Shown piece by piece: positions 34,421-36,945 of a stretch of 64,000 bases of DNA. The notes beneath the pieces were generated by a model. The model ran no database searches. It was given only the letters and a program-made list of their open reading frames with translations, and was not told the DNA's origin. The DNA lies in the NCBI RefSeq assembly GCF_001457795.1, contig NZ_LN898208.1, positions 62,001-126,000 of the forward strand, in the 5' to 3' direction. The DNA is from Olsenella massiliensis (GTDB lineage Bacteria > Actinomycetota > Coriobacteriia > Coriobacteriales > Atopobiaceae). The position numbers and the translations under genes were made by a program. Within the stretch, counting starts at the first letter, position 1; the number at the start of each line of letters is the position of its first letter.

Positions 34421-35239
34421 CTAGGCGACGACGCAGGCGCCCCGCAGCACGACCGCCTCGAGGTCAAGGTCGCCCTCGGCGCCCCGCCCCGCCGCCCGGG
34501 CCAGCAGCAGGAACTCCCGGTTTCCCTTGTGCCCGCGCAGGGGGCTCGGACAGGCCGCGCGGGGCGAGAGCCCCCGCTCGACGCAGGCGGCCGCCACGCT
34601 CCTGAGGGCCCCGACCTGCACGTCCGCGTCACGCACGACCCCGCCCTCGCCCACGTCGGCGCGAGCTGCCTCGAACTGGGGCTTCACCAGCGTCAGGAAC
34701 GACCCGTCCGAAGCCAAAAGATGCGCCACGGCAGGCAGCACCGTCCTGACCGAGGTGAAGGAGACGTCGCAGACCGCCAGGTCGATGCTCCCCGCCCGCT
34801 CGGGCGTGGGCAGGTCAACCACGTTGGTGCGCTCGAGCAGCTCCACCCGCGCGTCGCATCGAAGCGACCAGGCAAACTGTGCGTAGCCGACGTCGACGGC
34901 AAGGACGCTGCGCGCCCCATGCCTGAGCAGGCAGTCGGTGAAGCCGCCCGTCGAGCAGCCCACGTCAAGGCAGGCGAGCCCCGTGGGGTCCACCCCGAAC
35001 GCCTCGAGGCCCCGCTCGAGCTTGAGGCCGCCGCGTCCCACGTAGGCGCTGCCGCCGCGCACGTGGACGTCGAGGTCCTCGCGGACGCGCTCCCCCGCAA
35101 AGCTCAGGCGCCTGCCCGCGGCCGAGACGTCGCCGGCCATGATGGCCCGCAGCGCCTCGTCCGTCGTGGAAAACAACGAGCGCCTGACGAGCAGCTCGTC
35201 CAGGCGCAGCTTGGAAACCTTGTCCCGTCCGGCGGCCAC
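34421..35239 (-). CDS. tlyA: TlyA family rRNA (2'-O)-methyltransferase/hemolysin-like
   Basis: TlyA methylates 16S C1409 and 23S C1920 in mycobacteria. The 272-residue product has an S4 RNA-binding domain (KLRLDELLVRRSLFSTTDEALRAIMAGDV) and an FtsJ-like methyltransferase domain with DVGCSTGGFTDCLLRHG and LVKPQFEA. GTG at 35239 follows GAGGCGCCC and begins 7 nt after the xseB stop. Confidence 0.92.
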   Translation of the reverse strand: MAAGRDKVSKLRLDELLVRRSLFSTTDEALRAIMAGDVSAAGRRLSFAGERVREDLDVHVRGGSAYVGRGGLKLERGLEAFGVDPTGLACLDVGCSTGGFTDCLLRHGARSVLAVDVGYAQFAWSLRCDARVELLERTNVVDLPTPERAGSIDLAVCDVSFTSVRTVLPAVAHLLASDGSFLTLVKPQFEAARADVGEGGVVRDADVQVGALRSVAAACVERGLSPRAACPSPLRGHKGNREFLLLARAAGRGAEGDLDLEAVVLRGACVVA

Positions 35240-35246
35240 GGGCGCC

Positions 35247-35516
35247 TCACCCCTCGGCGACGTCCGTGACGTGGCCGGGGCGTCCCTCGGCGGGACGAGC
35301 GGCCTCGCCCGCCGCGAGCTGCGCGGCCTCGCGGGACGAGAGCTCGGTCATGTCAACCAGGTCGACGGCCTTGGATCCCAGGGCGACCGCCTCCTCGAAC
35401 AGGTCGAGGGAGCGCTCGAGCGAGGCGTCCTTGTCCCGCACGGCGGCGATGATCTCGTCAAGGCGGCCCTGAATCGTCTCGATGTCATGATAGCCGGCGG
35501 CATCCGGGCGCGTCAT
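35247..35516 (-). CDS. xseB: Exodeoxyribonuclease VII small subunit
   Basis: XseB partners XseA in exonuclease VII. The 89-residue product has the conserved helical core IQGRLDEIIAAVRDKDASLERSLDLFEEAVALG. Its ATGA overlaps the last codons of the xseA remnant by 4 nt (stop at 35513), which is how I recognise that remnant. The C-terminal tail is Ala/Arg-rich. Without xseA the enzyme would be inactive. Confidence 0.9.
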   Translation of the reverse strand: MTRPDAAGYHDIETIQGRLDEIIAAVRDKDASLERSLDLFEEAVALGSKAVDLVDMTELSSREAAQLAAGEAARPAEGRPGHVTDVAEG

Positions 35517-35614
35517 GCCAGGGCCTCCCCGTCGTGCGGGGCCGCAACGGCCGTCCGGGCGCCCTCGGCCGGCGTGGCTGCTCCCGACCCCTCGCCCGCC
35601 CCGTCGCCCTCCGC
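35513..35614 (-). pseudogene. xseA: 3' remnant of xseA, cut at adapter sequence
   Basis: A frame ending in TGA inside the xseB start codon encodes only about 34 Gly/Ala/Glu-rich residues (ending HDGEALA). It is the expected place and overlap for xseA, but the rest, about 1.2-1.4 kb, is absent and the frame runs directly into a Tn5 mosaic end. Most likely an assembly loss rather than a true deletion. Confidence 0.65.
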
Positions 35615-35652
35615 CTGTCTCTTATACACATCTAGATGTGGATAAGAGGCAG
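35615..35652. other. Nextera/Tn5 mosaic-end adapter palindrome (sequencing artefact)
   Basis: 35615-35633 is exactly CTGTCTCTTATACACATCT, the 19-nt Tn5 mosaic end used in tagmentation libraries. 35634-35652 is its reverse complement with two mismatches (T to G and A to G). The mosaic end is an engineered hybrid and is not expected in a natural chromosome; the head-to-head pair marks an untrimmed adapter join. Confidence 0.93.
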
Positions 35653-36578
35653 GCCCCGCCGGGGGTGCAGGTCGTACTCGCGCACGTCGCGCCGCCCCCC
35701 GAGCGAGGCGCCGCCGGCCCCGCGGCGCCGTCGCCGTCAGACGTGCCCCCCTCGCACGTCGCCTGCTCGGTCATGGCGCGCTCCACGGCGAGGCGGGCCT
35801 GGCCGATGACGTCGTCACCCTGCTCGATGCGGTCGGCGACCCTGCCGAGGACCCCGTTCACGAAGCGCGAGGAGTCATCGGTGCCGTATGCCTTTGCCAG
35901 CTCGACCCCCTCGTCGATGGCCACGGAGACGTCAACCGCGTCGACGGCGAGCATCTCGAAGAGGGCGAGCCTGAGCAGGTTGCGGTCAAGCGAGGGCATG
36001 CGCGAGACGCCCCAGTTGGGAGAGGTCTCGTCCAGGATGTGGTCGAGCGGGACCCTGAGCGCGTCGCAGCCGCAGGCGAGCTCCCGGGCATAGTCATCGA
36101 CGATGCCCGACGCCTCGACGACCTCATAGGAACCGCCGTGCCCGTCCGCGACGAAGCAGCCGGCCGGGCCCATGTCAAAGGCGAGAGGCTCCTCCCTGCG
36201 GGAGAGGGCGCACACGTAGCCCTCGCGGGCGTCATCCCAGACCAGCAGCTTGAAGCCGTGTGCGCGCACGGCGAGCAGACCCTGGTCGCCCACGGCGCGC
36301 AGGCGCACGCGGACGAAGTCGCCGGCGGCCTCGCCGTCGGTCCGGCTTCCCGCGAACTCGCTCCACACCCAGACCTTGCCGTCGTCGGGGTCCTCGAGCG
36401 CGTTGGGCCTGCCGGGGCGGACACGGGCGATGACGTAGTCGCCGGGCACGGCGCCCGAGACCACGTACGAGCACGACAGGACGTCCCTGACGCTCCTGCG
36501 TGAGAACTCGGCCTGGTACAGCAGCTGGACGGCCTGGCTGCGGGCGAGGGTGCGCCCGCGGAAGCAAGTCTCTGACAC
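35653..36578 (-). CDS. nusB: NusB antitermination factor with large internal insertion; 3' end lost at adapter
   Basis: NusB binds boxA RNA with NusE (S10) in rRNA antitermination. The start (RTLARSQAVQLLYQAEFSRRSV) and the C-terminal core (NWGVSRMPSLDRNLLRLALFE and SSRFVNGVLGRVAD) are clearly NusB. Between them, about residues 38-150, lies a segment not found in normal NusB of about 140 residues; it is rich in Val/Gly/Asp and predicted beta-like (DYVIARVRPG, VWVWSEFAG, GFKLLVWDDAREGYV). GTG at 36578 follows AAGGAG by 7 nt. No stop is reached before the adapter at 35652, so the true C-terminus is unknown. Confidence 0.8.
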
Positions 36579-36582
36579 GTCC

Positions 36583-36945
36583 CTACTCCTTGGGAAAGAC
36601 AAGGCTGTCGATGCAGACGTCAACGGCCTTGGGCTCGACGCCCACCTGCTCGCGGATGGCCGCGGCGACGGCCTGGCGCACGTTTGAGGCGAGCGCGACG
36701 AACGGGTAGCCGTAGAAGACCGCCAGATGCACGGTCACGCGCAAATCACCGCCCTCGACGACGGATTCCACGGCCGCCTCGGGAGAGGTGCTCTTGCTGG
36801 TGAACACCGAGATGAGGCTGGAGGCGATGTCGTTTCCCCCCACGCGCACCACTCCCTCGACCCTCTCGGCGGCGAGGGTCACGATGGTGGTGAGGACGTC
36901 CCTCGACACGCCTATGCCGGCAACGAGGAGTTCGGATTCGCTCAT
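36583..36945 (-). CDS. Asp23/Gls24 family protein (second copy)
   Basis: A 120-residue minimal Asp23-domain protein (VAGIGVSRDVLTTIVTLAAERV, VTVHLAVFYGYPFVALASNVRQAVAAAI). It lacks the acidic extensions of the copy at 1.3-1.9 kb. It lies between efp and nusB, a common place for an asp23-like gene in Gram-positive genomes. ATG at 36945 follows AAAGGAACAAG; the stop overlaps the nusB RBS. Confidence 0.88.
   Translation of the reverse strand: MSESELLVAGIGVSRDVLTTIVTLAAERVEGVVRVGGNDIASSLISVFTSKSTSPEAAVESVVEGGDLRVTVHLAVFYGYPFVALASNVRQAVAAAIREQVGVEPKAVDVCIDSLVFPKE

Follow-up and report, generated by a model that had tools for sequence, protein, structure and literature searches.

The window analysed was a stretch of 64,000 nucleotides on contig C10 (positions 62001-126000) of assembly G000, which comprises 1.82 Mb in 13 contigs. 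At the focal site, a 38-nt adapter and a short arm from elsewhere in the genome interrupt what reads as nusB, upstream of xseB and tlyA on the minus strand. The features of the locus, in window coordinates, are as follows.

34421-35239, minus strand: tlyA family rRNA methyltransferase (TIGR00478, 205 bits), co-linear in relatives
35247-35516, minus strand: xseB, exonuclease VII small subunit, intact (TIGR01280, 24.5 bits, under the 35-bit cutoff)
35513-35614, minus strand: probable final part of the NusB tail, 33 codons (AEGDGAGEGSG...GEALA) and a TGA stop that overlaps the start codon of xseB (ATGA)
35615-35652, no strand: junction adapter, almost certainly Nextera mate-pair, two back-to-back 19-nt Tn5 mosaic ends (36/38 match)
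35653-35700, no strand: mate arm, about 48 bp of an ABC-transporter gene (C12:63301-63349, 90% identical)
35701-36623, minus strand: nusB, conserved domain and proximal tail, cut by the artefact (TIGR01951, 99.9 bits; PF01029, 87 bits)

The first half of the adapter (35615-35633) was CTGTCTCTTATACACATCT, the exact 19-nt Tn5 mosaic end. The second half (35634-35652) was AGATGTGGATAAGAGGCAG, the reverse complement of the mosaic end with two mismatches (T>G and A>G). The two 19-nt mosaic ends stood tail to tail and formed a 38-nt palindrome, as in a junction adapter. The mosaic end matched the window twice at up to 3 mismatches, compared with a mean of 0.00 in dinucleotide shuffles. An earlier note had described an exact mosaic end followed by its reverse complement with two mismatches, and both the positions and the shuffles bore this out. 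A 9-bp Tn5 target duplication, with the flanks as two halves of one cut site, was rejected: GCCCTCCGC on the left and GCCCCGCCG on the right are not duplicated. The 38 nt are a laboratory artefact without biological novelty, and no biological reading of them survived.

The foreign stretch is not limited to these 38 nt, as had been supposed. About 48 nt to the right (35653 to ~35700) came from elsewhere in the genome, so that the artefact spans ~86 bp (adapter 35615-35652, mate arm 35653-~35700), the arm ending at ~35697-35700. The arm matched C12:63301-63349 (E=7e-11 over 48 bp; ungapped 92.7% over 41 bp, E = 3e-10), which lies within an ABC-transporter-like frame of 628 aa, read on the opposite strand. 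A junction formed from a single fragment was rejected at this site, as no matching arm occurred within 15 kb on C10 and the best match was on C12. In four relatives (G002, G004, G015 and G019), the ABC-transporter orthologue and the tlyA-nusB locus are far apart (at least ~80 kb). Because the source of the arm is on another contig and its orthologue is distant in relatives, the circle at this site was probably an intermolecular chimera of two fragments rather than a record of true neighbourhood. At 90% identity, the true source could be an unassembled paralogue. The arm is joined to the remaining nusB inside a C-rich run. The local DNA flanking the artefact has a G+C content of 83-85% on each side, which makes a coverage gap in this stretch likely.

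nusB, xseB and the location of xseA

The nusB frame enters the adapter without a stop, as had been noted earlier. The called nusB ORF (35622-36623) is artificially extended, and the TTG at 36623 is only the start of the longest ORF. To the left of the adapter, the minus strand reads AEGDGAGEGSGAATPAEGARTAVAAPHDGEALA followed by a stop, the TGA of which overlaps the xseB ATG. The downstream xseB was 49-65% identical to the xseB of relatives that share this gene order. Nine relatives were examined, and in each of them (9/9) the nusB stop was located 2-9 bp before the xseB match, leaving no room for xseA. Several relatives encode NusB proteins with variable low-complexity tails. Position and composition point to 35513-35614 as the end of a genuine low-complexity NusB tail.

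The earlier note had assigned this segment to xseA, with about 34 C-terminal codons left and most of the gene gone. The nine relatives in which nusB abuts xseB contradict this assignment and indicate that the codons belong to the NusB tail. A search for xseA elsewhere in the assembly, proposed in the same note, was carried out and located an intact copy at C12:120170-121426 (TIGR00237, 361 bits, no internal stop), so the gene has not been lost. The note had also considered contiguity across 35.6 kb unproven. The gene order tlyA-xseB-nusB across the join agrees with that of relatives and makes long-range contiguity credible; the doubt holds only for the NusB tail at the join, of which the exact sequence and length are unproven. 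An unusual G+C-rich tail hidden behind the scar, hard to sequence and perhaps much longer than assembled, appears unlikely.

In NusB, an insert of ~115 residues separated the first helix from the remainder of the domain (36120-36490, minus strand). A Pfam search of this insert matched no family. It aligned through in two genomes of the same genus (G002 and G003), but G001 and G004 encode an ordinary 168-aa NusB.

Recurrence of the adapter and order of its flanks

Genome-wide, the mosaic end matched 34 times at up to 3 mismatches, and a reversed-pattern control matched 0 times. The mosaic ends were mostly back to back, giving 17 palindromes of 38 nt at up to 9 mismatches; 20 shuffled versions of the palindrome had 0 matches in the genome even at up to 13 mismatches. 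A further copy was truncated by the start of contig C9. The junction-adapter scars outside the focal site, several of them next to duplicated arms of 42-111 bp, are listed by contig.

C9:1
C10:127456
C11:184952
C12:154672, 175744, 193144, 195601, 226603, 305933 and 361382
C13:223715, 277065, 277187, 343247, 388180, 403962 and 594835

Mismatches within the adapters were mainly T>G, A>C and A>G (23/35) and were read in this analysis as sequencing errors. The junction sites had a higher G+C content than the genome (70.7% vs 66.3%, p = 4e-7). At C13:277065-277224, two junction adapters lie 84 bp apart, and the piece between them consists of two segments, from C13:667193 (minus strand) and C12:279415, which suggests a concatenated chimeric circle. 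Among 400 genomes of the class, the palindrome was present at up to 3 mismatches in three, including G000. The other two carriers belong to the same order, with 12 (G076) and 28 (G128) copies. The four same-genus genomes had 0 copies.

Circularisation of a fragment with ends a and b joins b to a, and a read across the junction shows b, the adapter and a, in that order. Sequence from the left flank of the adapter is consequently expected to recur downstream, and sequence from the right flank upstream. A second copy of an adapter-flanking arm was found at 8 of the 18 junction sites, on the same contig and strand and 2371-9604 bp away. These duplicated arms were 42-106 bp long and 87-100% identical, and all eight occurred in the predicted order. 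Random points, used as a control, gave 7 of 1500 in the predicted order and 11 in the opposite one (Fisher p = 4e-13). Seven of the 18 sites had no identifiable duplicated arm. Across the genome, the duplicated flanks fit a single kilobase-scale fragment whose two ends were brought into circularised order.

Library type and proposed origin of the scar

Untrimmed TruSeq P5/P7 adapters were found inside contigs, some with poly-A/T tails, at the following positions.

C2:~196-250
C12:~232385-232425
C12:388560-388652
C13:345128-345192
C13:880492-880555

The TruSeq index adapter matched at C12:388619 (33/33), C13:880523 (33/33) and C13:345129 (32/33), with the index GCCAAT and P7 readable at the latter two. 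An exact junction adapter at C12:193144 is preceded, at a distance of 22 nt, by the end of the TruSeq universal adapter. Beyond the mosaic ends, no ordinary Nextera i5/i7 tails were found in the genome; this is the pattern of a library finished with TruSeq adapters. Circularisation in the Nextera mate-pair protocol joins two 19-bp junction adaptors (PMC3928519, NextClip paper), TruSeq adapters are added after circularisation (PMC6298255), and the resulting reads need junction clipping (PMC3928519, PMC6298255). Since tail-to-tail mosaic ends are the product of circularisation and TruSeq adapters are present, the 38 nt are almost certainly an Illumina Nextera mate-pair junction adapter, with the library type deduced from the assembly. 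The earlier note's interpretation of a library or assembly artefact, in which untrimmed Tn5 mosaic ends joined DNA ends, was retained, and the kind of adapter was refined to a mate-pair junction.

We propose that Tn5 would have tagged both ends of kilobase-sized fragments with a 19-bp adapter, and that circularisation of these fragments would have brought two adapters together tail to tail. The circles would have been sheared before the TruSeq adapters were added. Unclipped junction reads would then have been used, most likely during gap closing of the scaffold, to span a part of the nusB tail with low coverage and a very high G+C content (83-85%). The bridging read would have run from the local nusB tail through the junction adapter into ~48 nt of the other arm. 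This arm would derive from the ABC-transporter gene on another contig, by way of a chimeric circle, and would have been joined to the far side of the gap inside the C-rich run. In published pipelines, some applied to related human-gut bacteria, assemblers were run on untrimmed mate-pair data and GapCloser was used afterwards (PMC5552949, PMC6182551). Placement by a gap closer would fit such pipelines.

Ordinary Nextera (XT) read-through that was left untrimmed, with two contig ends overlapping through their mosaic ends, would leave the same 19 nt, as the mosaic end is identical in both kits. However, i5/i7 sequence should then follow and none was found, yet the full TruSeq adapter with its index was present. 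Nor does read-through predict second copies of the arms in circle order at a distance of 2.4-9.6 kb, and we consider it very unlikely. A real deletion or rearrangement that took most of xseA from between nusB and xseB, with the ends joined in the library, would match the open nusB frame at the adapter and the 34-codon frame end that precedes xseB. The loss of xseA was nevertheless refuted by the intact copy on C12 and by the nusB-xseB adjacency in relatives (spacing 2-9 bp in 9/9); the overlap of the 34-codon end with the xseB start is that expected of a NusB tail, which leaves a deletion with a negligible probability.

The many palindromic copies within one genome could also suggest that nusB contains the end of a natural mobile element (Tn5/IS50) or a member of a family of short palindromic repeats. 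Native IS50 ends differ from the engineered mosaic end, and it is the engineered sequence that was found here. The copies adjoin TruSeq adapters and mate arms and have no element body, and their distribution (0 copies in four same-genus genomes, 3 of 400 genomes of the class including G000) argues against a natural element, the probability of which is practically nil.

Assembly quality and comparison with known adapters

The assembly scored 97% complete and 0.26% contaminated. Despite these high scores, it carries ~17 junction-adapter scars in addition to TruSeq adapters. Any of these scars can cut a gene short or lengthen it artificially and can add 40-110 bp that belong elsewhere; as the duplicated arms demonstrate, the false sequence does not stop at the 38 nt. 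Gene ends read at scar positions would mislead; at the focal site no gene is missing. The copies in G076 and G128 indicate a recurring fault that is easily screened for. A scan for the 38-mer palindrome detects such scars and can serve as a quality flag.

Nextera/Nextera XT read-through has the 19-nt mosaic end in common with the scars described here, but its CCGAGCCCACGAGAC or GACGCTGCCGACGA tails are absent from G000. The Nextera mate-pair junction adapter shares the sequence (36/38) and the palindromic joining of two 19-mers, and the TruSeq adapters, the fragment spans of 2.4-9.6 kb and the arm order agree genome-wide with Nextera mate-pair libraries (PMC3928519). In contrast to the usual junction adapter, which is met in a read, the copy at the focal site sits in an assembled contig, contains read errors and is followed by a chimeric arm.
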